Assembly (NCBI GenBank): GCA_963920765.1
Contig: OY987243.1
Location: 25,229,419-25,293,418, forward strand
Length of the DNA stretch: 64,000 nt
Reading direction: 5' to 3'
From: Ulota crispa
Taxonomy: Eukaryota > Streptophyta > Bryopsida > Orthotrichales > Orthotrichaceae
The first letter of the stretch is position 1; the number at the start of each line of letters is the position of its first letter. The notes under the pieces were generated by a model, which was not told where the DNA came from, did no database searches, and saw only the letters and a program-made list of their open reading frames with translations. Of this stretch, positions 9,847 through 62,327 are shown piece after piece. The position numbers and the translations under genes are program-made.

Positions 9847-10080
9847 TTAACTCTTAAACAATTGTAGAGCATGGTATATCCTTTGCAATATAATTGGCAT
9901 TTGCTATCAACAAGAAGTTTTAATTTGGGATCTCAAATAGCTCACTAGAATCGCATTGATATGTATTTCAATTTCTTTCTTGATCTCAACTCTAGTAAAG
10001 GGGTGAATCTATGCCAAATACAAGAAAAGTACCTCGTATTGTATTGGTCATAGCCGCACATTTAGACTTTGAAAGATTAA
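9847..10080 (-). mobile_element. TTAA element, 'U' subfamily, 234 bp (reverse)
   Basis: Bounded by TTAA at 9847-9850 and 10077-10080. On the reverse strand it is collinear with the copies at 10077-10304, 16286-16518 and 16590-16831, sharing CCAATACAATAYGAGG near one end, GAGATCAAGAAAGAAATTG in the middle and GCATGG near the other. It forms one arm of a large inverted repeat with the next element, sharing the central TTAA. Confidence 0.7.
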
Positions 10081-10304
10081 ATGTTGTTGGAGCGAGTACA
10101 ATATGAGGTATTTTTCTTAAATTTGGAATGGATTTGCACCTTCATGTGCACCTTTAGTGCATTTGAAATCAACAAAGAAGTTGGAATGTAGATCAATGCA
10201 GTTCTAGTGAGCTGTTTGAGATCCAAAATTAAAACCTCTCGATGGTAATAAATTCCAATAATACGGCAACATATCTACTATGCCCTAGGGACATTTAAGG
10301 ATAA
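10077..10304 (+). mobile_element. TTAA element, 'U' subfamily, 228 bp (forward)
   Basis: Starts at the TTAA shared with the previous element (10077-10080) and ends at ATAA (10301-10304), a decayed TTAA. It carries TACAATATGAGGTATTTTTC, AATCAACAAAGAAGTTGGAA and, near the right end, TATGCCCTAGGGACATTTAA. It lies in inverted orientation to its partner. Non-coding. Confidence 0.7.
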
Positions 10305-10945
10305 GAAAGTCACGTTGATGTACTTTTGAGTTTGTTATTATTTATTGACTTTATGAAGTGCATCATTAATTAAACACATCATTGTTAGGTCTAACATTTG
10401 TACACTATGGACCTTCTACATTTTTCTTTATGGGTTCTCTCTGTTATGATAAATTCAAATTCTTTTCACATTAAATTTACCTTCTTAATTCAGAAATGTC
10501 CTTTCGAAATTTACTCTAAAAACAAGTATGATAAGAATCTTGGAAATTTATCACAGCTAGCACTTAATGTTGTAAAGTAAATGAACAAAATTCTAGTGAA
10601 ATTAACTAATTTTCAACTACAATCAACTATGAAAGGAAGTACAATCGAGAGTACAATTTCAAAACTGGTTTCAACGATAAAATATTGGCTCGTGTTGCAA
10701 CAGGTCCAACCATATGGATGTGGTCAATTGATTGTAGCATAATGCTTATATATAAAAGGCATTGTTTAATTAATCTTTTAGATTGCACTTTAGAACACAT
10801 TCGCACATTGTTGATAATCTAGAATATTCTATGGTCCTTAAAATAAAAGATGAAAAAATATTTGAAAAATCATATGTTTTGAGTTATGAACAAAATACAA
10901 AACGGCCACGCATAAATTAATTCCAAATAAAGCTATGCTCATAAC

Positions 10946-11183
10946 TTAACCCTTAAACACCCTAGTAACAAGATCCTGTTGTTGGGGATTGCAACTTGAT
11001 CGCACTTTTTCTCTCAATTTGTACGGTGAAAACGATTGTAACTAGTCTCCATTAGCAAAGAAGGTAATCCTTTTTCAAATCCTACAGTCACTTTTTTTGG
11101 GTGTAATTTTTCAAACTTTGGTGGCCATTAAATCCCCCATTTTCTCCTAAACCCTAAAACAACTTTGGGTGCTCAAGGGTTAA
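10946..11183 (+). mobile_element. TTAA element, 238-bp subfamily, copy 1
   Basis: Begins TTAACCCTTAAACACCC and ends GGGTGCTCAAGGGTTAA. It is collinear over its length, and identical in length, with the copy at 61180-61417. The two share AGGATCCTGT or AAGATCCTGT near the left end, TTTTTCAAATCCTACRGTCA, and GTGGCCATTAAATCCC. Non-coding. Confidence 0.85.
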
Positions 11184-11323
11184 GGTTACAAATTGGTGCA
11201 ACAACCTACAAAGCAAAACTATTTCTCCTTTGATAAAAAAACAAAATTTTAAAGGAATATGCTTGAATTGTTTGAAGTTAAAAACAAGATTCTCAACACA
11301 ACATTGTTTGGCTTTTCTAGCAC

Positions 11324-11870
11324 TTAACCCAAACGCCCAAGGGGGTAAGGGCAAAACGTAAATGTGTTATAAAATAATACTTTTGTAACTTCAATGAACT
11401 TTGTTTCAAAAGAGAAAACAAGAATCATGATGTTTAGTAATTATCCATATGGTCAAACTTTCAAAAAAAAATTGTACTCTTATTTAATGAATTTGGAAGC
11501 ATTTATTGTTTAATATTCATCAAGATTACAAATTTTATTCTCAAAGTTTAAAATTTTGTCCGATTGGTTACAAATAGACCCTCTATTCTAAAACTCAAAA
11601 ATGCAATATTTTTGAAGGAGAGAACATCATTAGTTTCATGATATAGTAAGTTTTATAACACTAATAAATACTAAAATGTTTGTTTTTGAAAAATTCTCCT
11701 TGGTGGAGTTTAACTTGAATTGTCATGATTCAAATTGCATTGAAAAGTATACTTGTTTTCTTATATGAAAATACTTTTAATTTTTCAATTTTTTTTTTTT
11801 TTTTACATTTGGGACAGCTTGCAAAAAAGGCAGCGATTAGAAAATGGTCAATTGGGCGTTTAGGGGTTAA
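11324..11870. mobile_element. TTAA element, 547 bp
   Basis: The left end TTAACCCAAACGCCCAAGG and the right end (inverted, TTAACCCCTAAACGCCCAAT) match except for one small gap. No coding capacity. Confidence 0.75.
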
Positions 11871-12543
11871 CCTTTCATACTTTGACTGCTTAAGGGAATT
11901 TTAATCTCAATAGAGTAGAAGTGTGTATTTTGATCAAATTTATAGAATACTGTATATTTAAAACGACGTAAAGATGTATTGTATAACTCAAACTTGAAAA
12001 TTTCAAGACAATTTTTTTTGGTCTACTTATTGGTGCCCACAGCTATTAGTGTCTCCCACTTTTGAATTCTTTAGAGAAACTTAAATCAGTGGATGTTTTG
12101 TTTTGAAAAAGAGTTTTCAAAACAAAATCAATGTTTTTTAATTGTAGAGCGAGTTGTAGAGTTTGAAAATAATCCCATTCCAATAGGCATGGTCATATTA
12201 TGCTAAAGGCATGAAAGGCATGGCCATACAACGTTGAAGTATGGATTTAGACATTACTAGAAAATTTAGGTGAATATCAAAGCTTGGAGCTAAATATTAT
12301 ACAATAAACACATCAAATTGTTGACTGTTTGTACTGTTTGTAGAGATTCTATATTAGATGTTACTTTTCAATGCTCAAGGTACCTTGAGATGCAAGCTAA
12401 GGGTGACCATTTACGGCAAAAAAAAATCCTTTTTTAGTACAAAATGGAGTGTTTTTGTGTTCTCTATGAGAATTCTCCCTCTTCTCAATGATAGTTCCAA
12501 ATTTCAAAAGTTGACCACCCTATTTTATGCCATTCTAAGACAC

Positions 12544-13505
12544 TTAACCCCTAAAAAACCAAGGGTGTTTTTTGAGAAAAAATCTCAAAAACTACCAACT
12601 TTTAGTGCATTGCCTAAAATTGAAAATAAAAACTTTTTTTCTCAATTACAACCATACAAAGATGTGTTGAACAGATAAGTTTATACGTGCAAAAATAATT
12701 CAGCCCATTTGGCCGCATGGATTGTAAGATTATAACATTTGAAGCAAGAAAAATAGCTTTTTTTCATTCCTACAAAACAAGGTTAGCAGACTTTGAGCCT
12801 TCCTAGAGTAAAATTTCTGCTGTACACAAATTTGAGGTTTTTGACCATTCACAAGTATATGATGTTAGGTTCACTCATGAAATTTTTTAGATGCAAAGAT
12901 AGAATCTAGCTTACTCTAAATCACCCTACAATGCAAGGAGGTTTAGTGAAGTGGCATTACATTAATTATTCTTTCATGATTTCTTGTGCAATGAGGAAAT
13001 TTTTTATTTGAAATCTAAAATGGTGAAAAGTTAGAGACAATCATTTGGAATATGTGAAAAAAAGTTTCAAGAGTTTTGGATTTATAGATTGAAAGACAAT
13101 AGGGCTTGAAGTTAGAGGAGTTTTTTTTTTCTTGAAAGTGCCCAAACATAGTTAACAAAGCTTGACTCCCTTCTAAATGTGATGTGAGGGTTTGATTTTT
13201 TTTTTGACAATTTTATATTATGCTTTTTCAGTTACATACTTGCCAAATGTCAAAAAGTTAATGAGAGTTTTAGCATAAGATTCTCCAAAGATGCCCAAGC
13301 TGCCCAGGCTGCCCAATTTTTTTTGGGCAAACATAACTTTTGAACTAGGCATCCGATTGGGGAAGAAATTACATTTCCACTTACAGGATACATATTTGCA
13401 CCTTGTGTAACAATTTTGAGAGCATCTAATAAAAATTAACTCCATATGACCCTACCCAAGTTCTCAAGTGGTTGTTGAACATCCACTTGGTCCATTAGGA
13501 GTTAA
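12544..13505. mobile_element. TTAA element, long subfamily, 962 bp
   Basis: Left end TTAACCCCTAAAAAACCAAG and inverted right end TTAACTCCTAATGGACCAAG. The interior contains a GGGCAAACATAACTTTTGAA phrase similar to the interiors of the elements at 17849 and 34319, so it belongs to the same long subfamily. Short open frames inside are not recognisable proteins. Confidence 0.65.
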
Positions 13506-14816
13506 GTGAAGAAAAAAACTAAAAAAAATGATTTAACTTAGAGAAATCAATCTCCAAAAAATTTAGTCATTCAGGAGCACATAAAAGTCTTTTTCTCCAA
13601 AATGTAAATTACATTCATTAAAAATCTATTCCAAAATGTAATCATCACAATCCTCCAATAATGATGCCAAAAAATTGTGCTCATGTTATGAGTCTACATA
13701 TCAATTCAAGAGTCATTTTTAGCAAGAAAAAGCATTGTGACAGTTTTAGGAGCTATGTTCAAAAGTCTTTTTCTCTTATCACATTAGAGATATATATTTT
13801 ATTTTGGTGAAAATTAAATCATCAACAAGTCTACTTTCTAAGTATGAGTCATTTCTCTCTTAAAAACTTCATTTTTCAATGAAACTATATCCATTTGCTA
13901 AAAAAATACTTCATTTTACCCTTGTGACATACATAATAGTATCCCTTAGCTTGCATCCAATTGGTACCTACCAATATTAGAAATTCCAATTACATTTGGT
14001 GTATATACAATTAAGGAAACTTTGAAACTCGAAGTCAGATGTGTTAGTTCAAAACGAATTAATAATACATGCTCATGTAAATTCACTTGACTATAAGTCA
14101 AGTCTCCTAATTTAGTAATATGATATGCAATTTCCAGAATATAGATATGTGTATACGCCTAGATATTTTGATCAAAGCGAAGGATGCAATTATTTATGAC
14201 CTCTACAATTCTTTTTCATTTGAATTCTAAAAGTGATTGTAATGAAGAACTTGAACTTGCTATTGAGGAGCTGGGTTTTTTTTCAAAATTGTTTTGAATT
14301 TTTGAACCTTGAAAGAAAAATATTAATGCAATTTAAATAATGGATAATATAATATTTATTTTGAACTTTGATATGATTGGCTAAAAGAATGAGATTTGTG
14401 ACATGCTTAAATTGTGCATTCATTTACCATTTTGTTGTGTACAATATGTCCAAATTTAAATCTTTGCATTTTAAGGCCCCAAGAGAAATTTGTATTGCAT
14501 TTATAAGTGTACTCTACAATCGCATAATTTGGCCAATCTCTCGAAAATGTATGTCAAAATAACTCATTTTGTGTTCATGTTAGCTTTTTGAAAGTTAATT
14601 ATTTGAAAATGGGAATGTTCTTGATTTATACTAAAAAAACATGAATCTGACAGTGTAGTCGTAATTTAGGACAGAAAAGTCACAAAAATTATTTTGTGTG
14701 TCAATTACAAAAGATCAATATTTTCTTTAGTTTGTACCACGTTAAACAAAAGAGAAAAATCAAGGTTTGTGAAAGAAACCTTGACCTTCATGTATTCTTT
14801 TGTTTACTTCCAATGA

Positions 14817-15440
14817 TTAACCCCTAAATGCCTGAGGCTTTTTTGAGCTTATAGGAATTTGCTCTATCTTGAACAAAAGTCAATGTTTTAATAAGTTGTC
14901 TTAATTTTTTTAAATTGTAGCCGTACAAATTCAAACTAGACATGTTAGATATTATATAGGAAAAGAAAACACAACAACATCACTTACGGATTGAAAAATT
15001 ATAATGTTTGATCATGAAGGTGTTAAAATTGCAAATGTGACTTCTAGTCTTTCAATCCTCTTTTCACATGTTGGATCTAAAAAGTTGGTCACCAAAAAAA
15101 ATGGTTAAAAAACACAACACATATAACTTCAATCACTTTATGACTTTTCAAAATCTCTTTTAAGTTTTTTAAAAATGAATTTCTAGTGTAAATTTTCTCC
15201 AAGATTTAGTGTATTTGAGGCTCATTTCAAAGAGCTCTCAACATTACAAAACTTCAAGATCCTTGTAAAAAATCTTAAATAAGAAAATCATAATCAATCA
15301 TTTTCAAGATCAAATTTTTGGTGCTAAACTAGACTTCAAGAAGAACATTGCAAAAAAATAAACTACTAAAAATAGCAACTTAATTAGATTTGATGAACTT
15401 CATAATATTGTGGACACCAAAATTTGGTGTTGCAAGCATT
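14817..15440. mobile_element. TTAA element, 624 bp
   Basis: Left end TTAACCCCTAAATGCCTGAG and inverted right end TTAACCCCTAAATGCTTGCA share 16 of 20 positions or more. No coding capacity. Confidence 0.75.
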
Positions 15441-15959
15441 TAGGGGTTAAAGAACAACATCCTTGATTGGTCAATTGAAGGTGAATATGAACTTAAACCT
15501 TGAGACAATGATAACAAAATTGTTTCACATGAACCATTTTCATTGTTGAAAGTCATTTTTAGTCACTGCAACAATCAATACATGATTGCACAGGAACTTA
15601 GGAATTAAATCCACAACAAAAAAACCAACTTCAAAACATGTGTAACTGATGTTGATTTAATAAGCTGTTATGAATCAAATTGTGAAGTTTTAGGTCTCTT
15701 GTTACTTTCAAAGTGCCAAATTCACTTTTTATTAGTTTAATCTAACTCTATAGAGTTTCAAAGTGTAGAATTGATATTAGACTATTCATTTGTAATAAAT
15801 AGTTTTCCATTTTTTAGAATCCTGAATTTTTTTTATCATAATGTTATTGACTAGTCTTTAATTTTTTAGTATTCTTTAAATTTTGTATCTTTGTTGAATC
15901 CTTGCAAATTTGCTTTTGATGTTTTGACATCCTAAATTCTTCAATTATCCTTCTAGATA

Positions 15960-16209
15960 GGGGAATGCTATATTGTGAGCAGGGATCCATGAGCCATGAG
16001 CCTAGGTTTTTTGTTTAAATACTCAATTTCACCTATAATTGTGTACATAGGGCCCTATAATTGTGCATTTTCTACTATTATCTTTTATAACGCTTGCTTT
16101 TTTAAAAGTTTTTTCATTGATTTTGAGTTCAACATTGGTTCATGCTCACCAAATCTTGGCTCACCACTCATAGGCTCACCAAGTTATGCTCACAAAATAG
16201 CGTTGTCCC
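15960..16209 (+). mobile_element. Dispersed 250-bp inverted-repeat element, copy 1
   Basis: Ends GGGGAATGCTATATTGTGAG and (inverted) GGGACAACGCTATTTTGTGA are terminal inverted repeats. TA lies outside both ends. The whole unit recurs on the opposite strand at 55742-55996, sharing GATCCATGAGC, CTATAATTGTG and ATTGTGCATTTT in the same order. Non-coding MITE of uncertain superfamily. Confidence 0.7.
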
Positions 16210-16285
16210 TAAGCAACAATCTTTGCAATTTTTAGGCACTCAAAATAATGGGAATTAGTTTCAAGAATTAAGTTTAAGCTTAACC

Positions 16286-16518
16286 TTAACCCCTAAATTT
16301 CTAATTGTGCCGCTACTACCAATACAATATGAGGTCTTTTTCTTGTATTTGGAATAGATTCACACCTTTACTACATTTGAGATCAACAAAGAAGTTGGAG
16401 AATAGATCAAAGCAATTCTAGTGCGCTACTTGAGACCCATATTAATATTTCTTATTGGTAACAAATGCCAACTATATGTGAGCGTTTATATTATGCCCTA
16501 TGGTAATTTAACCCTTAA
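16286..16518 (+). mobile_element. TTAA element, 'U' subfamily, 233 bp (forward)
   Basis: Begins TTAACCCCTAAATTTC, carries CCAATACAATATGAGGTC, GAGATCAACAAAGAAGTTGG and TATGCCCTATGGTAATTTAA in the subfamily order, and ends at the TTAA at 16515. That TTAA is also the left end of the small element that follows. Confidence 0.7.
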
Positions 16519-16593
16519 CCCATTAACGCCAAGAGGTCTTGAAATACATGGGAAATCAACCATATTCTAGTTGGTTGGGTGTTAATGGGTTAA
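16515..16593. mobile_element. Tiny TTAA element, 79 bp
   Basis: Begins TTAACCCATTAACGCC and ends GGGTGTTAATGGGTTAA. It sits between two inverted U copies and shares a TTAA with each. It is related to the 81-bp element at 27243 (shared TCTTGAAATACAT / TCTCAAAATACAC). Confidence 0.7.
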
Positions 16594-16831
16594 ATGACCA
16601 AGCAACCATAGGGCACAGTATGTAAGCTGTTGTATAATTGGTGTTTGCTACCAACAAAAAGTTTTAATTTGGGATCTTGTCTACCTCACTAGAACATCAT
16701 TAATCTATATTCTAACTTCTTTGTTGATCTCAAATGTAGCCAAGGTGTGGATGCTTTCCAAACACATTAAAAATACATCATATTGTACTGCTTACTACAG
16801 GCTGCTGAAACATTTAAGGGTCAAGGGTTAA
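16590..16831 (-). mobile_element. TTAA element, 'U' subfamily, 242 bp (reverse)
   Basis: Reverse-strand copy. It reads inward from TTAACCCTTGACCC at its right end, then GTACAATATGATG, GAGATCAACAAAGAAGTTAG and GTGCCCTATGG, ending at the TTAA at 16590-16593. It is the mirror partner of 16286-16518. Confidence 0.7.
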
Positions 16832-17176
16832 AATAACCGAGCCCATTTTTTCTCAGAAAACATTCAAAATAGTTGTTTTTAGTGATTTGATCTTGAGAGA
16901 AAGTTTTTCTATTTTGTACAAATCTGTCTTGCATGAGATTTATGGAAGAAGACATGGTGAAAATATTTGTGATGTTTATGATCATTTGAACTAAGTACAA
17001 AAGTTTCTTTCACTAGAAGAATTACAGCAATAAACAACTAGGTCACAACAATTGCACAACAATTGAACAACTATACAAGAACTATGCAACAACTACAAAA
17101 TGACTTGATTACAATCATATAGTTGTTGGGTGAAAGTACGCTAGAGGTGTACCTTTTTTGGACAATTTTTGCATAC

Positions 17177-17270
17177 AAAAACACATTAAAAAAAAACACA
17201 TTAAAAAACAAAAAAAACACATTAAAAACACATTAAAACCCCATTAAAAGCACATTAAAAGCACAAAAAC
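17177..17270. repeat. Imperfect ACACATTAAAA repeat
   Basis: Low-complexity run of ACACATTAAAA-like units of variable spacing, within the CACTA-like element. Confidence 0.7.
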
Positions 17271-17848
17271 ATTGAATAATTTTTGTGAATTTTGTTTGAA
17301 ATTTGTTTTTAGCTATTCTAGACCCAGTTGAAATCATTTGGAATCTTAAATGCAATTAAGGAAAACATACTTTTTCACAAAATTATCTCTTGTCAAAAAA
17401 CGAGCAAAAAATCAGCATTATTTTTGTAGATATTTGAAAAATTTGTGAATAATGTATTTAGAAATTTGAATGCAAAATTGGATAGAAGAGCCATGGATGT
17501 CTTTTGTGAAGTAAGGGTGGAAGAAAATGATTTCTCCAAGTCCAAATTTTTTTTGCAGTTTTCCATAATTTTCTAGTACTTTCTAGTACTGTGACATTTT
17601 AGTAATGGTCCACAAAAGTAAAAATTTAGCAACTTGTAATTTTTTTTAATAAATTCAATCATGATCCTATGTAGTTTGCACATATAGTGAATAGGAAAAC
17701 AACAAAAAGTTCTAAAAAGACCTTTAAACTTTGAGTAATTTCAAGTACAAAATCATGTTTACCTCCATTTTTGGGTTGTGACACCCAAAGTGGTATAAGG
17801 TAGGAGCACCCATAAGCGTCAATCTAAGGGTTTCAAACATGATGAGTA

Positions 17849-18779
17849 TTAACCCCTAAAGGACCATGGCCTTTATTTTGTCAAAAGAAACTCAAAACTG
17901 CCACCTCTATGGCAAAGAGTAAAAAAGTTTGAAAATCAACCATTTTGCATATCTGACCATAAGATCTTGTGCTAGACTACTATAAGAATGTGTTATACAA
18001 AACTCAAGAACTTTGACTGCACAAATTGAAAGGTATTTGCATTTAAAAAGTAAAAAACAACTTCTTTTGCACCTTGCTTGATTAGATTTTTTAACTTTGA
18101 ACATTTTTAACTTAAAATTTTTGCTCCACAAAGTTTGGAATTCTATTTTTGCATGGTGGGAAGTTGAGTTGGGAATCTTGAGAAAAAATAAATAAATAAA
18201 TAAAACTTAATTTTCATTCTTTAAAAAATCATTAGGTAGAAGAAGGTATGAGATTGAACAAAAACGTAAATTGCTAATAACCCTGCAATGGAATTGAAAT
18301 GCAATAATCCCAATGGTAAGATTGTTCTAGAAAGCAAACTTCACCCTCTCCAACAATTTTTTTTGAAAAAATGTTAAAATTGCATTCAAAAATGAAGTTT
18401 ATAAGTTATTTTTTCAAGAAGATGCTTGAGTTGCCCAAAAAACTAGATTGTCCATAATTTTCTCATAACTAGTCCAAATGGAATGAATCAAAGCTTCAGA
18501 AGTAGATAAAGATATAATCCATGAGAAATACAAATTAAAATTTTTTTTCAAGTTTTTATAAGATTTTTTTTTGCTGCCCCTAGTCTCCAAATTTGTGCTT
18601 ATTTGGGCATAACTTTTGCTCCTTGGCATCAGTTGGAATAAAATTATATTCCCCAAAAGCTAATGTGTTTTTCTATCTTCAAAAAAAGTTTCAAAAAATC
18701 AAGACAAAAATTGAGGCCGTAGGTACCTGCCCAAAATCCCATTTGTCCTCCGAAGGGACAACGGTCTTTTAGGGGTTAA
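17849..18779. mobile_element. TTAA element, long subfamily, 931 bp
   Basis: Left end TTAACCCCTAAAGGACCATG and inverted right end TTAACCCCTAAAAGACCGTT. The interior aligns with 34319-35240: both have CAAAACTGCCAC or AAAAACTGCCAC, then a GATCTTG..CTAGACTA phrase, and near the right end GAAGGGACAAYGGTC. It is nested inside the CACTA-like element. Confidence 0.8.
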
Positions 18780-27117: not shown

Positions 27118-27492
27118 GGGAAAGTTTTATGGATACCCTTAAAGTTTGCCATTTTTGTTTAGATATCCGTGGTCTTTTAGAAATTGCACAAATACGTGAG
27201 GCGTTTGTTTTGTTATGCACGCTACGTATTTCATGACCAATGTTAACCCCTCAACGTCCCGGGTATCTCAAAATACACTCAAATGGGGGCAATATTTGGA
27301 CCTTTTGGACGTTGAGGGGTTAAAGCAAGGAGTGCAATAGAACAAAAGCAACATGCGTACAAGGGAGAATGTAGTGGCATTCATAATAGAATAAACGCCT
27401 AAAAACTATGGTCCAAGAATATTTGTGCAATTTCTAAAAGACCATGGGTATCTACAAATATGGCAGACTTTAGGTGTATCCATAAATTTCCC
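27118..27492. mobile_element. Foldback element, GGGAAA ends
   Basis: Left arm GGGAAAGTTTTATGGATACC and inverted right arm GGGAAATTTATGGATACACC continue as an inverted repeat for more than 90 bp (shared TGGTCTTTTAGAAATTGCAC). The 9-bp flanks TAGAATTAT and TGGATTTAA match at six positions, so a decayed Mutator-type duplication is possible but unproven. It hosts an 81-bp TTAA element in its loop. Confidence 0.65.
27243..27323. mobile_element. Tiny TTAA element, 81 bp
   Basis: A perfect 17-bp terminal inverted repeat, TTAACCCCTCAACGTCC, at both ends. It lies near the loop between the two arms of the 27118-27492 foldback element and is related to the 79-bp element at 16515. Confidence 0.85.
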
Positions 27493-30994: not shown

Positions 30995-32444
30995 TTAACC
31001 CCTAAAGGACCAAAGTCTCCTTGGGGGATTTTCCGGATTTGGGTAGGCTCATGTGATCTTAATTTTTGACATGGTTTTTTGAAATTTTTTATGGGTGTGT
31101 AGGAATGTATAAGGTTTGTGGGATGCAAAAAATCTTGTGATTATGTCACACAATTCAAAAGTTATGGGCTATTTTTGGCCAAAAGCAGTTTGAGAGGCAA
31201 CTTGGGCAAGGGAAAAGATATTGACTTTGAAGGGAGGGGGCAAGTAAGGGGTTGCCACATGTTGCTCTTGTGGTCCCCATTACTTTGTCATTGCCCCCTT
31301 TCATTTCCAATATGGAGATCAGATTAGGTTTTGGGAGCCTCTAAATTTTAGAGATTTTGAGTTTTTTTCCTTTGACATTTAAAGTTCATGTTTATCTTCA
31401 TACACATTGTTCAGATTTTCCATATCTAAGAACATGTGCTAGGAAACTTCACTAAAAAATGTCATAGTGTATTAACAAAACTTGTTAAATAACATTATAT
31501 AGTTGCATGGTCGGTTGACCCAGAATGCGTGTTCTATTCAACTTTCAGGAAGATGTTCTGATTGTAAGGCTTATTTCTTATAGAAGAAAAAGCTTGGAAG
31601 CATCCTAAATTAGGGAATATGTTCTATACTTGTTCATAACAAAATATGTAATCAATGTTTGTTAAAATTAATAATACTAGAAATAATGGACTTTTCAATG
31701 CATATATTTGGATTGTCCCATTCACTGCATCCTATGAAAATGATTGACATAATGTATCAATTTAGCTTTAATGCGTACATAGGGACTACATATGTGATTT
31801 AGCATCTCTTAAGTATTTCAAAAACGTGCTATAATTTTAGACAAGTGGCGTATAATAATAGCCATGGAATTTTTAGTGCCCAAATTCAGGCTAAATGTTT
31901 AGGCGGCAATATCTTAATGATTTTAACATTTTTTTAGTTTTTTCTTTTTTCTTTTGCAAAAATCTTCCCAATGGCTACATGAGCTTGGCCTTTTTTTGTA
32001 GAATGCACGTATTTGTATAAAGGAAAACAAACACTTTGTGATCCATACTCACAAAAATCTCAAAATTTTGGACTTTTTATGAGGTCTTATCCGCCGTTTT
32101 TGGGTCAACCGACCATGCAACTGACCAATGGCATTGCAATACTTATTTAGGATGTGTTCAGTGTCTTTGATTGCCTTGAAAATTGGTATACATATGTCTA
32201 ACTTGATTACCTATAAGATAAAATTACAACTTCAAGGTCTATAGTGCAAAACAAAATGCTCACAACTTTCATTCCGTATGGTCAAATGTCACAAAATTTT
32301 CAGCACTTCTTCTACAAGTGCATTACAAGATCTTTTGGTTAGATTCCAAGAAAAGCATTTTGATGTAAATTTTGATGAACACAGCAATAGGGGCAATTTT
32401 GAGTGGTTTTTGGTAGAAAATGGCCTTGGTGTTTTAGGGGTTAA
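30995..32444. mobile_element. TTAA element, 1450 bp including a nested insertion
   Basis: Left end TTAACCCCTAAAGGACCAAA and inverted right end TTAACCCCTAAAACACCAAG. It contains the 622-bp element at 31501-32122. Without that it would be about 830 bp, close to the long subfamily. Confidence 0.65.
31501..32122. mobile_element. 622-bp element with perfect 22-bp inverted repeats
   Basis: The 22-bp ends at 31501-31522 and 32101-32122 are exact reverse complements, beginning AGTTGCATGGTCGGTTGACC. No direct duplication is visible outside them. The palindrome TGCA within the ends could itself be the duplicated target. No coding capacity. Superfamily unknown. Confidence 0.75.
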
Positions 32445-33586: not shown

Positions 33587-34138
33587 TTAACCCCTAAACT
33601 CTAAATACCTTTTTTTTTTGGCAACATAGCAATTTTGGGCAGCTCATTACCAATGGGTTTTTTATTTTTTTCTTTAAATTTTTCTCACATCATGTGTCCA
33701 AGGAGTAGCTTTAAGGTTCACCAAATTTCATGACTTTTGACTTCATGGTTCAAAAGTCATTGCATATTATGTTGTTTTCTTAACTTGGCAAGTAGCCCAA
33801 GCAACTCAAAAAAATCTCTTGAAAACTCACATTTTTTTTTTTTTTTTTTGAAGTTGGTTTTTTTGATTTACATACACATGGGAAGCTTTTAATCATTCAA
33901 TTTCAACTAATGAGGTGAAAGTTATGAGGAATTTAGGTTGAATTTTCAAGAGGTTTTCCCAAGCTGCACAGGCTGCCTAGCAAGCAAAGAAAACAACATG
34001 ACATGCAATAACTTTTGAACCATGAAGTCAAAGATTATGAAATTTAGTGGACTTTAAAGCTACTCCTTGGACACATCATGTGGGAAAATTCCAAAGAAAA
34101 AAAAGAAAAACCTGTTGGTTCAGGGCTTTAGGGATTAA
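33587..34138. mobile_element. TTAA foldback element, 552 bp
   Basis: Left end TTAACCCCTAAACTCTAAAT and inverted right end TTAATCCCTAAAGCCCTGAA. The interior arms are long inverted copies (CACATCATGTGTCCAAGGAG near 33686, inverted near 34055-34080), with T runs around 33832-33850. Confidence 0.75.
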
Positions 34139-34318: not shown

Positions 34319-35240
34319 TAAACCCCTAACGGACCAAGCCCTTTTTCTCCTAAAATCACTAAAAACTGCCACTTCTAGGATGTTTAGAAAAAAGAGATTT
34401 TATGTTTTGTTTTTGGAAATCCAACTACAGGATCTTGCCCTAGACTAGAAGAGGTACTTGTCGGAAAAAAATCAGCTCATTTCAAATGGAGAGGAGTGAG
34501 ATATTTACATTTAAAATGAAAAACAAAGCTTTTTTCCATGCTGTCCAAAAATTTCAGAAACCTTTGATCACTCTTATAACAAAAAAATTGCTCTACCCAA
34601 AGTTGCGCTTTATTTTTTCCATGTAGGAGATCAAATTAGGTATGTGTAGGAGAATTTTCAAATCAATTGGAAGTTTACTAGACATGGGGAAAAATAGTAA
34701 GTAAAAAGAAGTAGAGAATGAGTCAAAGCACTAAATTGTTAAGAATTTAATTATTAAAATGAAAAATGCTAATCCCAACGGTGATAATGTTGTGATAAAC
34801 AATCTACTTCCCTTGATTTAATTTTTTTTCCAAAATATTGAAAATTGAGTGAAAGAAAGGACTTCAAAGTTTATTTTAGAGTAGAGATTCCATAACTGCC
34901 CGCAAACAAAAACTCATCACAACTTTCATCTCATTGATTGAAATTGAATGATTCAAAGCTTCTCATGAATAAAAAAAATCTAAAGAACCAATTTCAAAAT
35001 TTTATTTAAAAATTAATAATTTGTAAAGAAGTTTTTTACCCTAAACCCAAATTTTCATAAATTCATGCATAACTTCTTTGTCAAATGTCAAAATGAAGAA
35101 AAAATTAGATGCCCACGCAGATCTTTAAATTCCCCACTTTCAATAAAAATTTCAAAAAATCACATAAAGTAGTTCAGGCATAGGTACATGACCAAAGTCC
35201 AACCTATCCCCTGAAGGGACAATGGTCCTTTAGGGGTTAA
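34319..35240. mobile_element. TTAA element, long subfamily, 922 bp
   Basis: Left end TAAACCCCTAACGGACCAAG (TTAA decayed to TAAA) and inverted right end TTAACCCCTAAAGGACCATT. The interior is collinear with 17849-18779. Its right TTAA (35237-35240) is also the left TTAA of the next element. Confidence 0.75.
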
Positions 35241-35485
35241 CCCTTGAGCGCTTAGTCTTTGAACCTAAAATGTCTGATCTGCTTGCAATCAAAGTATTCC
35301 TATGGGTTGAAAAATACGATCCACAAAATTGGACCATATGAATTGTTAGTGGAAAGCGTCTCCATTGTGTTGGGCTCAATTGAAGGTAGTTTCATGGAAG
35401 GAACAATGAGATTGTAGTGGTCAAAATTGAGTTGACCTAGTTTTTTGAGAGACATTATAATGTCTCTTGGGCACTCAGGGGTTAA
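35237..35485. mobile_element. TTAA element, 249 bp, abutting the previous one
   Basis: Left end TTAACCCTTGAGCGCTTAG and inverted right end TTAACCCCTGAGTGCCCAAG. It shares its left TTAA with the 922-bp element. Confidence 0.75.
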
Positions 35486-53425: not shown

Positions 53426-53444
53426 GACCTCGGACGACGGGAGC

Positions 53445-53765: not shown

Positions 53766-53784
53766 TTAACCCCTAATCGCCGAG
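53766..53784 (+). repeat. Orphan TTAA-type end near the LD promoter
   Basis: TTAACCCCTAATCGCCGAG resembles family left ends. No right partner was found within the next kilobase. A weaker left-type word, TTAACCCTGTCAAGTGC, is at 54415. Confidence 0.4.
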
Positions 53785-54814
53785 TTGTGGGGTCTAGATG
53801 GATGACGAGACTGGCACTGGATGACGAAGACAAACTATTCATCCATCGAATGTTGTATTTACAGGAGTGGACAAAAAAGATCCATTCCTTACTCAAATCC
53901 TTCTCATATAAGGTAGTATGCTCTAAAATTGTCATTTTAAGGGCTAGTTTTCTTTTTATGGTTTTTTCAAGACAAAAAAGATTTTTTGTTTAATTTTTAA
54001 ACAAAGAGAGATGGATGCAAATTGTAACACACTTTTTTTCATGTTTTTTGAAGGATTATTGAATTGTTGATGAATTTTCAATTTTTTTTATAGTAAACAA
54101 CTATTTGTGACTCTAGGTCTCCCATAAACCGTCCCCTTGCAACTTGTGAAGAGATGGGTGAAATCAAGGAGTGTGATTGGCTCTTGTAATAAAATATACC
54201 TTTTCTTCTATGACTGGAAGGGGTCCATTCAAAAACCACTTCATATCCTTCCCTAAGTTACTATGTGGCCCTTTTTTTGAAAGGGTCGCAATTAGAGCAT
54301 ACAACCTTAATTAATTCTTTGCCAAATCTAAAACCAATTACATATTTTGAAAGCCTATAAAGGGGGAAAATATGTGTTAAATTTTGAAAAGTAAAGTATT
54401 CCAACTAAATGCCTTTAACCCTGTCAAGTGCAATTTTGTACTATCAAATATGCTATATTCATCAACTTTTAGTCTTCTACCAAAAAAAATTTAAAGTTTT
54501 AACCACTTTTTAGAGCTTAAAACTGCCCCAACTCAAGCAAGCCTCTTATTGTAGATAGAAAGAGGGACACAATGCACTTAAATTTGACATGAATCAAATT
54601 AAGAGAAGTGTTAATAAAAAATCATTTAAAAAAGCATCAAAGAATGATTTAAATGCTTTTAAAATCACTATAAGTCCACCACTAATCTAAAACCAATACA
54701 TTCTCAATCTATTATTAGAACTTTCAACATATGTACTTTTAAAATTTAAATTTAGTGAAGTATTGATTGCATGGGAGGAGTGTGATTGAGGAATGGATCT
54801 TTGTGTCCCCATCT

Positions 54815-55008
54815 CACTAGAAGAAAAACAAGGATAAACAACTCCACAAATCACAACAACTAGGTCACCAGAACTGCCTTGCAACTCCACAAACAACTAC
54901 GCAACAATTGCACAACTAGATTGTAGTTGTGCAAATGTTGTGGAGTTGTTGTGCAGCTGCAAGACAGTTCTGGTGACCTAGTTGTTCATCCTTGTTTTTC
55001 TTCTAGTA
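54815..55008. mobile_element. CACTA-like hairpin element, 194 bp
   Basis: Left end CACTAGAAGAAAAACAAGGA and inverted right end TACTAGAAGAAAAACAAGGA, with TCT directly outside both (54812-54814 and 55009-55011). Nearly the whole element is an inverted repeat, with arms sharing AACTAGGTCACCAGAACTG. The same terminal words bound the 2.1-kb element at 17011-19112. Confidence 0.8.
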
Positions 55009-55078
55009 TCTCTACACTAAATAGTGCATTTAAGTTGTTCCCACACTAATTTCTTTACATTTAGCACTTAAAAAATGA

Positions 55079-55307
55079 TGTGTGTGTGCATGTGTGCGTG
55101 TGCGTTGGTTTGATGAATCCTTTTTAGTTCAAAGTCCACCTTAAAATAGAGTGGAGTCCAAGTTTAACCAAGATGAAAAAAATTAGTTCAATATCCACAA
55201 TAAAAATAGAGTAGAGTATAAAACTAAAAGTACAAAAGTTATATAATTGGAATGGATTCATCAAATTGACACACACACACGCGCGCATACACAAACACAC
55301 CCAATTC
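55079..55307. repeat. Inverted repeat with TG/CA microsatellite arms
   Basis: The GTGTGTGTGCATGTGTGCG arm leading to GGTTTGATGAATCC is mirrored by GGATTCATCAAATTGACACA. Between them a TTCAAAGTCCACC / TTCAATATCCAC unit is duplicated. Probably a decayed inverted-repeat element. Confidence 0.5.
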
Positions 55308-55429
55308 TTTTGTATAATAAGATATTAAATTATGCTAAATGGAATCACCATGGTTTTTTAGCTTTGCTAAATGTAGCAACAAATTGCAATTGGACATGTT
55401 TGTTTGGTCATTAGTGATCGGTGTTACCT

Positions 55430-55570
55430 AATGGGCATGGGGATGGGGGGTATGGGGATGGGAGGCATGGAGATGGGGCAAGGATGTGAGGCATGGTAAT
55501 GGGAAGCGTGGGGATGGGGGACATTGGGATGGGAGGCATGGGGATGGATGCATGTTGATGGAAGGCATCA
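55430..55570. repeat. G-rich minisatellite
   Basis: Imperfect units of GGCATGGGGATGGGA, about 15-17 bp, roughly eight copies. Confidence 0.8.
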
Positions 55571-55741
55571 TTTGGTGTTCATTTAGCTTGCTAAATGAGT
55601 TTACCAACTAGTTTAGCTCTATATAAATACTCTCTAGTACTACAATATTTTTTCATAAACAAATATTTAATGACATTTATTATTGTCTAAGTCATAAACC
55701 GTGTGAAATCCTAGCATTTAGAAAGTTGCATGTTTCTCCAA

Positions 55742-55996
55742 GGATAATGCTATTATGTGAGCATGAAACATTGAGTTGTGAGTAGCAAGCCACAAAAAAT
55801 TGTGAGCACTGATGGGTTTTGAGTGCAAAATCAATGGTAAAACTAAGAAAACAACAAATTTTTCAAGGGATAAATATTTAAAATGCACAATCATAGTGCT
55901 ATATACACAATTATAGTTGAAATTTAGTATTCTAACAAAAACTCCAAGCTCATCGCTCACAGCTCATGGATCTATGCTCAAAATAAAGCAATTCTC
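55742..55996 (-). mobile_element. Dispersed 250-bp inverted-repeat element, copy 2
   Basis: Reverse-strand copy of 15960-16209. GGATAATGCTATTATGTGAG at its left (in window orientation) corresponds to the other copy's right end, and GAGCATAGATCCATGAGC (reverse strand) to its left part. The terminal bases are more decayed than in copy 1. Confidence 0.65.
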
Positions 55997-56031
55997 TTGA
56001 GCTATCTAAACAGAAATTAAAAAAAGGAACT

Positions 56032-56707
56032 ATGTACAATTCTAGTTTGTTGGTTATTCAAAAATTATTAAGTACAAATGCATATCTGGGCCATCGAATA
56101 CCTACTTCTAATTTTCAAGGATATTTATACGGATTTAGAAATGAAATGGCTATTATTAATTTAGAAAAAACACTTATTTGTTTACGAAGGGCTTGTAATT
56201 TTATTGAATCTATTATTTGTGCAAAAGGCCATTTTTAGTAGTAAATACCGATCTAGAATATAATAAAATAGTTCAACAAATGGCAAAAACAACCAATTAG
56301 AGCTATATCAATCATAAATGGATTGGAGGATTTTTAACCAATCGCAAACATATGAAGAATGTACAAAAACACTTTCAGAATTTCTCTGCGCATTCCAAAA
56401 CGCCTCTATATCGTCGCCCTTCGATTTTTTTCCGCATTTTAGAAAGATGCAAAAATGTTTTGAAGGAATCATGACACACTATATTCTAGATTGTTTAGTA
56501 ATAATAAATGCAAATAAAAATTCTATGGCTATACTTGAAGCCAATCAATTACAAATACCTATCATATCTTTGGTGGATTCTAATATTTCAAACAGATTAC
56601 AAAAATTAATAACTTATCCCATTCCAGTGAATGATGATTCTATACAGTTTGTATATCTATTTTGTAATTTGATAACGAAAACAGTCATTCTTTCACAAAG
56701 TGCTTGA
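56032..56707 (+). pseudogene. rps2: Nuclear copy of mitochondrial rps2 (broken)
   Basis: Fragments in three frames together resemble bryophyte mitochondrial ribosomal protein S2. The first 68 codons include LLSTNAYLGHRIPTSNFQGY and FRNEMAIINLEKTLICLRRA. A one-base loss near 56235 shifts the frame. A middle part (about 56235-56390) carries a TAG at 56298. A second shift then leads to SSPFDFFPHFRKMQKCFEGI and PIISLVDSNISNRLQKLI before a stop at 56705. It cannot encode a working protein. It is AT-rich, surrounded by nuclear repeats, and best read as a mitochondrial-to-nuclear transfer. The insert may extend to about 56900. Confidence 0.8.
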
Positions 56708-57050
56708 CCACTCTCGCGAAAATCCTTAAGTCGAGGCCGCAGGCCCTAGTTAAAAAAACAATCTCTAGATTGTTTTTTTCAGATTGAAAATGGAGAAAAA
56801 GAAGCTTGAAACTCTTTCTAAAACTTTTTTAACTTTTTTATCAACAGATTTTACTTCATATTCAACTAGTAGTGGACTATTATTGCTCTAAAGCTCTTGG
56901 TCAAGCGGAAAAGCAACCATTTTGAAAGAGATTTTGTGTTTATTATTATTTATAAGTTGATTAATGAGTTATTGGAAAGATATGAGTGCACATTATATTG
57001 CAATAACAAAATAGGTGTTTTCAACATTTGGATTTCAAGAATTTGTTGAA

Positions 57051-57947
57051 GGGAATTGATATGTGTACCACACCCTTTGAACTACTGTACCACACCCTTT
57101 GAACTATTGTACCACACTCCTGAGGTAAATATCAGAATTCTACCATCAAAAAGCTGAATTTGAGAATTTGGAATTTAGATTTGGACTTAGAGACCATAAT
57201 TTTGTCCAAAACCATAAAAAAAGTTGCAATAATCAACAATACCCAAAGAAAAACCTTATATTTTTTTACAAACAAAAGTATAAATAACACTTATCTCTAG
57301 CTAAACTTTTTCATTGGGTGTTGTTGAATTGCAACTTTTGTTATGGTTCTAGACAAAACCATGGTCTCTAAGTCCAAATCTGAATTCCAAATTCTCAAAT
57401 TCAGCTTTTTGATGGTAGAATTCTGAAATTTACCTGGGGAGTGTGGTATGGGGAGTGTGGTATGGGGAGTGTGGTATGGGGAGTGTGGTATGGGGAGTGT
57501 GGTATGGGGAGTGTGGTATGGGGAGTGTGGTATGGGGAGTGTGGTATGGGGAGTGTGGTATGGGGAGTGTGGTATGGGGAGTGTGGTATGGGGAGTGTGG
57601 TATGGGGAGTGTGGTATGGGGAGTGTGGTATGGGGAGTGTGGTATGGGGAGTGTGGTATGGGGAGTGTGGTATGGGGAGTGTGGTATGGGGAGTGTGGTA
57701 TGGGGAGTGTGGTATGGGGAGTGTGGTATGGGGAGTGTGGTATGGGGAGTGTGGTATGGGGAGTGTGGTATGGGGAGTGTGGTATGGGGAGTGTGGTATG
57801 GGGAGTGTGGTATGGGGAGTGTGGTATGGGGAGTGTGGTATGGGGAGTGTGGTATGGGGAGTGTGGTATGGGGAGTGTGGTATGGGGAGTGTGGTATGGG
57901 GAGTGTGGTACAGTAGTTCAAAGGGTGTAGTACACATATCAATTCCC
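57051..57947. mobile_element. Mutator-like foldback element with 9-bp duplication
   Basis: Arms 57051-57250 and about 57300-57947 are inverted copies, with ends GGGAATTGATATGTGTAC on both. TTTGTTGAA is exactly duplicated outside (57042-57050 and 57948-57956). A perfect 9-bp duplication and long inverted arms are the signature of Mutator-like elements. The loop is about 50 bp. No transposase, so non-autonomous. The right arm is inflated by a minisatellite. Confidence 0.88.
57436..57910. repeat. 14-bp minisatellite, about 34 copies
   Basis: GGGGAGTGTGGTAT repeated head to tail over about 475 bp with virtually no variation. It lies only in the right arm of the Mutator-like element. The left arm has two or three related TACCACAC words. 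Period 14 leaves all six frames largely open, giving spurious long reading frames. Confidence 0.97.
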
Positions 57948-57956
57948 TTTGTTGAA

Positions 57957-58859
57957 TTGCCACACAAGTATTTGTTAACCTTTAAATACACAAACAAGCG
58001 CTCAAATGTGAGAGGATCACTTTTGTTCCTTTTTTAGGGTAGAATTGGCTAATTGCTTTGCTAGAAAACAAAAATTGGCCATAATTTTTGCACATGGGTA
58101 CACATTTTTTATAAATTGGAAAAGCTAAAAAAAACCCTCTATATCTTTTGTATTATCACAAATTTCTTATTTAAAATTCAAACGATTTGATAACACTTGC
58201 AACATGTTAATATGAACACATAGTGCCATTTATTCGATTTACCCTTTAACAAGAATATGCACTCCACACATGGTTTGATCTATGTGGATGAAAATGTGCA
58301 AAAATCAACAACAAAAGTGGTTGATAAAGCTGAGAAAAGTTGATGCAAACATAAAGACCATAATTATTGAAGAACATTTTGATGTCATGAAATGAAACAT
58401 CTTTTGGGAGTAAAATTAATAAGAATGATCTTGCTTTGTGCAATTTATAGATGCCACAAATTGACAAAATTATATATTTTCTTTCCTTAGAATATGGTTT
58501 TCTGTTTTTGGATTTTATTTTGTCTTGAATTTCTTTAGTATAGCAGATAAAATGTACGAGAGAGGGCTAAAAAAACATTTAAAATGCATCTTTTAAATTC
58601 CGTAAGATTCTTTCAAAACCTTATATTTTGAGTTAGATATATAGCCGAAGGATTTATTAGTTAAACTTCATAGACTTGTATTAAATGTTTACTTCAAATT
58701 GGAAAAGCAATAACAGTTTAAGTGGTGTATTGATTTTGATAGTTGGTTACGGTAACTTAATTGGATTCAAGGTCAAAATATCTCTATTATTACATCTTAG
58801 CATTCATCTATTTTGTGAGTTTTTGATGTCTTTTTATGGAATTTGAAGTGATCTCTAAA
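57957..58859. other. Intergenic, no feature seen
   Basis: AT-rich sequence without a supportable gene or element boundary. Confidence 0.5.
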
Positions 58860-59092
58860 TTAATCCCTGAAGGGCTCTTGGGCTCTTGAGCTACGGTACC
58901 AAATATGGTCGCAACCAATATTCAGAATTTTGAATTAGTTAGAAATTAAGTGTTACAATCATACATATTGAAGAATTCTATGATGGTGGGTACATAATAT
59001 TTTTTGAAAAGTCCTCAGAGCAACTCAAATACGTTTGTACATATGGTCATACATACGGCTGCAAAAGGGCGTTTGGGCCCTTCAAGGGTTAA
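58860..59092. mobile_element. TTAA element, 233 bp
   Basis: Left end TTAATCCCTGAAGGGCTC and inverted right end TTAACCCTTGAAGGGCCC. The size matches the 230-250 bp class. The interior differs from the other members. Confidence 0.7.
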
Positions 59093-60087
59093 CAATGTAG
59101 AAAGTTTTTTTGTGAAAAATCCACCAACATACTTTAATATAATATTTGAAATCTTTGAATGCTTTGAATAAAAAAACCAAATCTTTATTTACGTTTCTTG
59201 AAAGTTTGAAAACAAAAAGTGTAAAATTTATTGTACAGCTGCATGTTGATGTTTTTTATCGCCATGAAAATCAAAACTCCTCAAAAATTTACCTTGTAAA
59301 CTCCTAATCCATAGATTTTTACGCCTTGTCTTTTCCAAGCTTACCAAAATCAACAAACAATATTTTATTATAAATTGTGTCAAATTACAAATAATACAAT
59401 ATAAAAAGAAATCCTAATCTTGAAAGCGCCCATTATATTATAAATAATTTATATGGTTTTAAATTATTGGGTATATTGACTTTGATCAATCTAAACATTT
59501 CCCATTTTGATCTGAAATGTTTGTTCATTTGATTTCAAAAAAATCTCGATGTAAATGTTACAAAACTTGAATACAACTTGATTGTAGTGTTGTCAAAATA
59601 AATAAATAAATAACTTGGAGTGCGACATTAAGATGGGGCACTCTTGCACAACAAGGACCATGAAGCTCTAAAAAATCATAAAATTGGCAAATAATTATCT
59701 TTAAAGGTGATTAATTGCAAACAAACGCTTATTTGATGTAACACACACTATATTATAAAAAGCATGTATCAACGTGAACATAAATCAATCCAAGTTTGAA
59801 ACCTCCCACTGAACCTGTACACGTTAATTGCCTTGTTTGAATAGTTAATTTTGCATTTATTTGAAAATTGTTATGCACAGCAAAGTCCTTGGTAAAGTTT
59901 CAATGCTATCAATTAGGATTTAGATTGTGAGTTGGAAGGCTAACTTGAACCTTGGATTTGACTATATATCAAAATGCCAAGTTTAGAGGAGCCCTTTTTT
60001 TTCTTGTTGCTATATAACCATTACACTTAGTTATGAACTACATTTGTGTTGTTCAATGAATGCTTATATGAATAGTAGTATATATAT
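59093..60087. other. Intergenic, no gene supported
   Basis: AT-rich DNA with no recognisable feature. Confidence 0.5.
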
Positions 60088-60223
60088 CTACAAGAAAAGT
60101 ATGGTTGAATTTACAAAAAGTTAACAAAGATTGTGACCTAATCTACAATAATCTACAATATAGTATAGATTAGGTCACAATCTTTGTCAACTTTTTGTAG
60201 ATTCGACCATGATTTTCTTGTAG
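60088..60223. mobile_element. 136-bp hairpin element, CTACAAGAAAA ends
   Basis: CTACAAGAAAAGTATGGTTG and its mirror CTACAAGAAAATCATGGTCG bound a near-perfect hairpin (arms share AACAAAGATTGTGACCTAAT). The ends resemble the CACTACAAGAAAA of En/Spm elements, but the outer two bases differ and no 3-bp duplication is clear. Confidence 0.6.
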
Positions 60224-60443
60224 TCTAGAGCTATTTGTTTACTTCTTTGAGTTACTATTTTTAATTGAGTATATGTAGTATTAGTAATCTTTGGTTTGTT
60301 TAAACCCAAATTGGGTGTTTGAGTAGAAGAAGTACTTTGAGGTGTTTGAATAGATTATGAAGTCTTCTTGGACCCTTGGCCAAGGTAAAATTAGACATCA
60401 AACTATTTTATTACTTAATCTTGTCGATTGAATTGCTAATTAG

Positions 60444-60510
60444 CATTATATAACACCAAAAATCATTATATAACACCAAAAATCATTATATAACACCAAA
60501 AATCATTATA
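60444..60510. repeat. 20-bp tandem repeat, 3.3 copies
   Basis: CATTATATAACACCAAAAAT repeated three times without change, then a partial copy. Confidence 0.95.
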
Positions 60511-61179
60511 CATACATTTTCATTTTAACTTAATAACAAAAATTCTTTGAAATTTCTAAACCAATATCAGTTGCGGTTTTTAATTAGTTGCCTTAATATA
60601 AGAGTGGAGGTTTGATATAAAAAGATCAATTTCATAGTAAACGGTATTTGTGCAAATCACCAAAAGCTTATTATAACAATGATTGTGCTATTACTATATC
60701 ACGTTTGAAATAATTTGTTGCTCTCTATTTAACAATGACCTCCAGTTTAAATTGAAATTGACTCAAATATTGGTTCATTAATTCTTAACCCTTTAGTGGA
60801 CCAACTCAAGTTTTAAAATGCGATGATGGGTCATGAAGTGCAATCTAAAAGAAGGGACCGTTGCTAACATCACTATTTAGCAATAAAAATTGAAATAAAT
60901 AATTCAATATTATTTTCATGATCGGTGATAAACTGGAAATTAACGATTTTCACAATGTTTTTTTCTCTAAGTTTACAGAATAGGGATGCTAATTGTGGCA
61001 ATTTTAAAAGATGCATCGGAGCAATATGTTTTCTAATAATTAAATGAATTATATGTGTTTGAATTGAAGAGGCAAGTTTTTAACATGAAACAACTTTTTT
61101 TTGCATTGAACTATTGACTTTTTCACACAATTTTTTGAGACTTGTTACCAAACGAACTTTAAAAAACCACATGACTCTA

Positions 61180-61417
61180 TTAACCCCTGAGTGCCCCAAT
61201 GACAGGATCCTGTCGTTGGGGCCCACAACTTTATCTCATTTTTTTTATTAATTTGTAGAGTGAAAACAGTCATGTCTGGTTCCCATCAGCACAAAAGATA
61301 GTATTTTTTCAAATCCTACGGTCACTTTTTTTGAATGTAATTTTCCAAGCTGTGGTGGCCATTAAATCCCACATTTTCTCCTAAATCCAAAAATAACTCT
61401 GGGCGCTCAAGGGTTAA
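61180..61417 (+). mobile_element. TTAA element, 238-bp subfamily, copy 2
   Basis: Begins TTAACCCCTGAGTGCCCC and ends GGGCGCTCAAGGGTTAA. Identical in length to and collinear with 10946-11183. Its right TTAA (61414-61417) is also the left TTAA of the next element. Confidence 0.88.
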
Positions 61418-62327
61418 CCCTTTAAGGACCACATGACCATATTTTGGTTGCTAGGAGTGGTTTTTGGCCTGTAGGTTGAAATTGCTCAATAATTTAGAAT
61501 TTGGTCTTGAAGTACGCATATGATCACAAATTTTTTGCATCCATCTAAAGAAATCCCAATGCAATTGGGTATGTGAGTTGATAAATAATGGTGTTTATAC
61601 GGCATGGTTTCAAAATATGTATCCATTTTTTGTCAATGATGGATTAAAGCAACAACACAATACATCAAGTATGCAAGAAGAATGTCAAATTTCAATTGCA
61701 CAATTCTAAAAAATTCAAATTGCTTAGGAAATACGCTTGTATTGTTTTCATATGCGGTAATAGTATAATTGTAGTATTTGAAGATCTACAAAAATGTTGT
61801 TGTCATTTTGGCTTTAGAATTTCTCATCTTACATTTAAGGCCAATTCTTGATTGTTTTCACCAATTGGATTTTCCAGAATAATTATCAAATTTCTTGTAG
61901 AACTGTTTTAGGGTAGCAAAGTAAGTGGGTTTTTTGACTCTTTTTGTCCACTTAGCTACACCTTGTGATTGCTATTTTTGTCTATTTTGTGTGAAACTAG
62001 TCTTGTTGGAAAGGTGGGAAACCTTGCTTTCTAGAGATGTAGGGCTTTTCTCAATCAAAACTTGCATGAAAGGTTAACATTCAAAATTATACAAGAATGA
62101 AACACAAGAGATTTTCCGCATACGGCTCACTCAATCATTATAATATTTTACTTCCAACGGTAAATTTAGTTGAAATTTTGGTGCTCTACAATAAACAAGG
62201 TGCACTTCCCATTTGTATGGTTAGATTATTGAAAATGTGTCCATATTTGAGTCAATTCCAAATCTAAGCTTACAGCCCCTGATTTCAATAGATTTTGTGA
62301 AAATGGGTGTGGTCGTTAAAAGGTTAA
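61414..62327. mobile_element. TTAA element, long subfamily, 914 bp
   Basis: Left end TTAACCCTTTAAGGACCACA and inverted right end TTAACCTTTTAACGACCACA. It shares its first TTAA with the 238-bp element. A similar left-type end, TTAACCCTTTAGTGGACC, at 60785 has no clear partner. Confidence 0.75.

Follow-up and report, generated by a model that had tools for sequence, protein, structure and literature searches.

Transposons of the piggyBac superfamily, which is mostly encountered in animals, target TTAA and have ends that start with CC, as do T. ni piggyBac (structure 6x67) and Myotis piggyBat (9c0f), and short piggyBac-type miniature inverted-repeat transposable elements (MITEs) have been described from corals (PMC2872659) and, as mPok, from Daphnia (PMC4912750). 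The same target and the same kind of ends recur throughout a 64,000-nucleotide stretch of genomic DNA (hereafter the window) from a 275-Mb assembly of 157 contigs. We are highly confident that the elements in question are non-autonomous MITEs of several piggyBac-superfamily lineages in a land-plant nuclear genome: they end TTAA-CCC...GGG-TTAA and sit at TTAA, and their empty sites have one TTAA (once TCAA). Unlike the coral and Daphnia MITEs, they inhabit a land plant and comprise several families at once. They are a known kind of element, though neither the host nor the scale was expected.

For plants, a review lists PiggyBac among angiosperm MITE superfamilies (PMC10004981), and other papers count it among plant DNA-transposon superfamilies (PMC10794571), call it occasional in plants with red algae as the example (PMC12732532), or state that piggyBac-like elements occur in plants (PMC8086355, PMC10813416). 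In the fern Ceratopteris richardii, a repeat table gives 1,230 copies of “PiggyBac” repeats with 122,417 bp (PMC6890710). Unlike the angiosperm elements, which the review gives as a name in a list, those described here come with a transposase partner and empty sites, and unlike the far fewer fern repeats, known by a repeat-table label only, they form a genome-wide class. A MITE survey that covers 207 plant genomes, including four from bryophytes, names neither piggyBac nor TTAA in its main text, which also states that plant MITE pipelines sort into five superfamilies (PMC12550479). A study of expressed moss transposons includes mariner elements and makes no mention of piggyBac (PMC7466625), and elsewhere piggyBac figures just as a tool that had by then not been tried in Physcomitrella (PMC5505980), or as a vector (PMC13325672). 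We found no report of a land-plant piggyBac MITE expansion in the open full-text literature, and subscription papers, preprints or Repbase may hold one.

TTAA-bounded elements in the window and the genome

An earlier note on this stretch had reported TTAA-bounded MITEs with a shared end motif, and these are real: the window holds 9 forward and 11 reverse exact TTAACCCYTRAR ends, 20 on both strands, against a mean of 0.07 per strand expected by chance (one-strand first-order Markov control, 100 runs), an excess of more than 100-fold. Pairing with degenerate ends allowed yields 16 elements, of which one lies inside another; together they cover 8,947 of the 64,000 bases (14%). Both ends are exact in six of them (10946, 14817, 17849, 30995, 35237 and 61180, named here by their start in the window), and at least one end is off the motif in the remaining ten. 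From the 18 starts listed in the note, 16 held up, nine as exact ends (10946, 12544, 14817, 16286, 17849, 30995, 33587, 35237 and 61180) and seven as degenerate ones paired with a matching end at the other side (9847, 11324, 16515, 27243, 34319, 58860 and 61414); position 10077 reads TTAAATGTTG and has no end there, and 16590 is where the 79-bp element 16515–16593 has its right TTAA. Element sizes of 79–81, 233–249, 546–552 and 914–962 bp lie close to the clusters proposed in the note, and further sizes of 458, 634 and 1450 bp have to be added.

That some of these pairs are chance pairings or composites of adjoining elements is a reading that we consider rather unlikely. In its favor, both ends are exact in only six of the 16, 11324 and 16515 were drawn by end resemblance alone, the right end of 9847 was placed by eye, and exact right ends at 687 and 19782 have no partner end. 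It is countered by the more than 100-fold excess of exact ends and by full-length relatives for seven of the 16 elements, five at other loci (12544, 14817, 34319, 58860 and 61414) and two of each other (10946 and 61180). Among the loci that contain such copies, L003–L007 were fetched by end motif, so that one end was preselected, which does not apply to L039, L041 and L043; genome searches add full-length copies of 34319, 61180 and 14817.

Genome-wide, TTAACCCYTRAR occurs 26,697 + 26,522 = 53,219 times on the two strands compared to 695 + 714 = 1,409 for the reversed pattern, and exact TTAACCCCTAAA occurs 15,477 + 15,495 times compared to 41 + 36 for its reversed control. What had been described as a dense group is dense in a relative sense: the window has 20 ends and the genome mean is 12.4 per 64 kb, so that the window exceeds the average only about 1.6-fold. 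The genome holds tens of thousands of short piggyBac-type remnants, and if the ratio of ends to covered bases in this one window can be extrapolated, they account for roughly 9% of it. The 53,219 exact ends make piggyBac-type MITEs a class that extends across the genome of this plant, and pipelines that sort plant MITEs into five superfamilies would be expected to misfile or miss them.

Large piggyBac elements as the coding partner

The genome-wide transposase search was made with PF13843, the piggyBac transposase family, and gave at least 120 matches on contigs C1–C11, all listed ones above the curated cut-off, with a best E value of 1.3e-73 (116 of 528 candidates scored); none of 14 control genomes matched. 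Only 10 of the 120 matches have no internal stop, and some of the stops in the other 110 may lie in introns. Ten transposase loci (L039–L048) were refetched with long flanks, and L045, L046 and L048 were then extended upstream (L049, L050 and L051). The extended forms L045x, L046x and L048x measure 8,255, 8,829 and 8,530 bp and have perfect TTAACCCCTAAAGGACC left ends and perfect TTAACCCCTAAA right ends, so that three of the ten long-flank loci supplied, with two perfect ends each, the longer DDE_Tnp_1_7-encoding member which the earlier note had proposed to look for. All three pairs are homologous from base 1, and homology runs to the last base in L045x–L046x and L045x–L048x. Between L039 and L040, identity is 90.5% over a block of 5,029 bp that ends at TTAACCCCTCATCGCC / TTAACCCTTCATTGCC-type termini, where the left flank of L040 reads TTCA, and L042 has a plausible end pair 7,495 bp apart (L042:11–7505) by ends only. 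Candidate ends of transposase elements at L041:7149–8115 and L043:729–1637 were dropped as separate MITEs that resemble 12544 and 61414.

The connection between MITEs and coding elements is clearest for the 922-bp element 34319–35240. Its left end aligns with the 3' ends of L045x–L048x over 344–361 bp at 72–78% identity and to within two bases of the terminus, and its right end aligns with the 5' ends of L045x, L046x and L048x over 188–195 bp at 79–82% and to the terminal base; L046x alone gives 78% over 361 bp at the 3' end and 82% over 195 bp at the 5' end. Since both ends are common to them, 34319–35240 is an internally shortened relative of the coding piggyBac elements. The window elements are short, free of transposase and present in many copies with the ends of coding elements, as expected of MITEs, and long stretches of shared ends are seen for 34319 only.

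The encoded protein can be followed at L044, where an uninterrupted frame of 389 residues matches PF13843 (E 4.1e-67) as well as the solved structures of piggyBat (9c0f, E 2.6e-24) and piggyBac (6x67, E 7.6e-20). As the one protein that was aligned residue by residue, it has aspartates at all of positions 268, 346, 447 and 450 of 6x67; we take D268, D346, D447 and the aspartate at 450 to be catalytic in T. ni piggyBac, so that in this respect the DDE_Tnp_1_7 transposase resembles those of T. ni piggyBac and piggyBat. A possible further likeness to the superfamily, which has a C-terminal cysteine-rich domain, is a cysteine-rich stretch soon after the domain in six of nine elements by an ad hoc pattern (L039, L041, L042, L044, L048x and the decayed L047x); the pattern gave nothing in L046x, and matches 0.6–1 kb off in L045x and L043 were not counted. 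Unlike T. ni piggyBac, given as 2472 bp, the three complete-ended elements span 8.3–8.8 kb. Unlike it, too, L042 reads as intron-split: a first open stretch, which has no family match and by eye resembles the start of the domain, is followed by two others that cover adjacent segments of the PF13843 profile, which suggests a gene interrupted by introns. L045x, L046x and L048x share a coding-like DFLDSQ stretch some 4 kb upstream of the domain. The same pattern search did not find it in L047x or L039–L043, and it may represent a protein of its own or an N-terminus joined on by splicing.

Kolobok and Sola3 duplicate TTAA as well, and this tetramer by itself is not diagnostic of piggyBac. Another TTAA-targeting superfamily of this kind could have made the MITEs with piggyBac merely co-present, the more so as most MITE families are not tied to a transposase of their own and the search was aimed at PF13843. 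We nevertheless judge this very improbable, because PF13843 is carried by elements whose ends are perfect and of this very kind and because MITE 34319 has approximately 350 + 190 bp of its ends in common with them; for the TTAACCCCTAAAGGACC group it is strongly disfavored already.

Target sites and empty sites

Exact TTAA precedes 7,555 of 8,876 CCCCTAAAGGACCA copies genome-wide and 12 of 14 CCCCTAAANG sites in the window and L009–L044, a count from which L001–L008 were left out, having been selected by TTAA. A scan for empty sites with 105 flank joins gave five joins that matched across the junction (eight rows), of which three were kept; the joins of 11147 and 11148 to 11870 reflected a mispairing that matched itself and were dropped. 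The joined flanks of 17849–18779 match L005 over 157 bases without gaps and with TCAA as the tetramer, those of 27243–27323 match L049 with one TTAA, and those of L040:7252–7621 match two palindromic elements of the window, again with one TTAA. Two nested copies complete these comparisons. In L058, an element of the 238-bp family is inserted in a copy of the 14817 family at a point that corresponds to a single TTAA in the window (15105–15108; identity on the right side is just 78%, and the exact junction was placed by eye). In L059, such an element is inserted in another member of the family to which it belongs, again at a point with a single TTAA in the window (61362–61365).

The empty-site comparison advocated in the earlier note was thus possible five times, with a single TTAA in four cases and, in the fifth, a single TCAA against two TTAA at the filled site. 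Insertion at TTAA with duplication of the tetramer and inverted ends that start CCY beside it are both features of piggyBac, and together with the coding partner these results bear out a superfamily call that had been made from the ends alone; neither non-TTAA empty sites as a rule nor another class of transposase, which the note had named as grounds for abandoning it, was encountered. It is exceedingly unlikely that the elements are PIF/Harbinger (Tourist-like) MITEs, whose 3-bp TTA/TAA duplications can imitate TTAA beside an A or T, given three flank-join empty sites that align without gaps around one tetramer (twice TTAA, once TCAA), two nested-copy cases that agree on a single TTAA, exact TTAA before 7,555 of 8,876 ends, and a partner transposase of the PF13843 family. 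A separate 352-bp insert in a 34319-family copy on contig C7 (L053:550–901, reverse complement), at first taken for a further empty-site case, has a 4-base overlap of AGTA instead of TTAA and is another kind of element or event.

Several observations weigh against the piggyBac reading. Exact TTAA is missing before 1,321 of the 8,876 CCCCTAAAGGACCA ends, and one of the five empty sites reads TCAA. In the 30 transposase loci fetched first, with flanks of 1.5 kb, no such end was found beside the gene at zero to one mismatch except at the edge of L030, and a scan of the same loci for pairs of TTAA-flanked terminal inverted repeats gave none. Both ends are perfect at only three of the ten long-flank loci (L045, L046 and L048), those of L039 and L040 are degenerate, L047 has a right end only, and L041, L043 and L044 have no settled ends; three of ten is itself not a fair rate, because L045–L048 were preselected for resemblance of their short loci to 34319. 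Among the other MITEs, 12544, 17849 and 30995 match coding elements over just 21–132 bp at a stretch, and the GAG-type families (10946, 35237 and 61180) and those of 27243, 33587 and 9847 are not linked to a coding partner. The transposase link holds for the CCCCTAAAGGACC group only, and the other end types are assigned by TTAA, CCC and family resemblance.

Proposed mechanism, age and activity

From these features we infer TTAA-directed cut-and-paste movement of the MITEs. A transposase made from full-length elements would have bound the MITE ends, excised the element and joined it into another TTAA, which would be duplicated in the process; short copies without genes could thereby have moved in trans and come to outnumber the coding ones. 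The large, now decayed piggyBac transposons with the same ends probably mobilized the MITEs in this way. More tentatively, and with somewhat more doubt than conviction, we propose that a lineage of large piggyBac elements in a land plant, probably a moss, drove what is possibly one of the largest known piggyBac MITE expansions, which would amount to about one-tenth of the genome; this lineage would be characterized by a length of 7.5 to 8.8 kb, introns and the conserved upstream coding-like ...DFLDSQ... stretch as a possible second protein or spliced acidic N-terminus. Ranging from coding elements of 8.8 kb down to derivatives of 79 bp, the set forms a natural series in which the origin of MITEs can be studied.

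A first look gave 9,109 copy candidates for 34319, 1,075 for 61180 and 5,129 for 14817, and among the 40 scored for each the best other copy has 89%, 91% and 90% identity, respectively. The large elements of L045–L048 are 63–72% identical to each other over the transposase region, with L039 and L040 closer at 90.5%. Best copies at 89–91% and stops in 110 of 120 transposase matches point to old and decayed lineages among the copies examined, and younger copies may exist elsewhere. Judged by these old copies and the stops in most transposase matches, there is probably little or no transposition left.

Individual elements of the window

Six elements of the window have two exact ends. The 238-bp elements 10946–11183 (TTAACCCYTRAR family) and 61180–61417 are 79% identical over their full length, and the latter was also used in the genome search; with the 249-bp element 35237–35485 they represent the GAG-type families with TTAACCCYTGAG ends, of which 10946 has one such end. 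The 634-bp element 14817–15450 has copies in L039 and L007 besides those of the genome search. The 931-bp element 17849–18779, with the TCAA empty site in L005, matches L045x and L046x at its ends, and the ends of the 1450-bp element 30995–32444 resemble those of 17849 and 34319. The end motif CCCCTAAA, present for example in 17849, includes CCCTAAA, which is the plant telomere unit and could mislead scans for telomere motifs; its occurrence inside element ends is probably due to chance.

Other elements have full-length copies, namely the 962-bp element 12544–13505 (L003, L004 and L041 at 84–87%), the 233-bp element 58860–59092 (L005 at 82%, fetched by end motif) and the 914-bp element 61414–62327 (L043 at 81%). 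The left flank of 34319–35240, the element that shares both ends with the 8.3–8.8-kb piggyBac elements, reads TAAA for TTAA. Adjoining elements have a single TTAA in common at 35237–35240 (34319 and 35237) and at 61414–61417 (61180 and 61414), as is also seen in L060. The 81-bp element 27243–27323 has TTAACCCCTCAACGTCC ends, and its empty counterpart in L049 shows a single TTAA. By ends only, we drew the 547-bp element 11324–11870, which lacks two bases after TTAACCC at the left, and the 79-bp element 16515–16593, which is nested at the center of 16286–16831.

Three window elements and L039:430–1155 are largely palindromic (foldback type). The 458-bp element 9847–10304 has worn ends (TTAACTCTTAAA), the right one reading TTAT; the 546-bp element 16286–16831 that contains the 79-bp element has an alternative right end at 16824; and the 552-bp element 33587–34138 has arms of 181 nt with 81% complementarity. 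L039:430–1155 is self-complementary at 96% along its entire length. Palindromic elements of this type are a possible source of hairpin RNA.

Host genes and other features

The earlier note had called the genome plant-like, in line with the chlorophyll a/b-binding proteins that it encodes; these, together with a PMI1-type protein (PF21745, NT-C2) and a Myb-like regulator encoded in the window, identify the host as a plant. For the Lhcb protein of L054, the best chains of ordinary length are 8htu_U and 7xqp_a (456 bits), which are presumably moss (Physcomitrium) entries, followed by 8c29_G (436 bits). The host is probably a moss. Two very long chains, 9vfj_2 (620 aa, 520 bits) and 9vfj_11 (1048 aa, 442 bits), are probably polyproteins and were not counted. 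A likely Lhcb gene cluster lies at C4:21391382–21771811, where eight chlorophyll a/b-binding matches of equal or near-equal score fall within 0.4 Mb. Rfam gave no match within the 64-kb window. Two tandem repeats with 100% matches were seen in the window, a 14-bp unit (TGGGGAGTGTGGTA) in 34 copies at 57435–57910, a minisatellite that is very recent or homogenized, and a 20-bp unit in 3.3 copies at 60444–60510.

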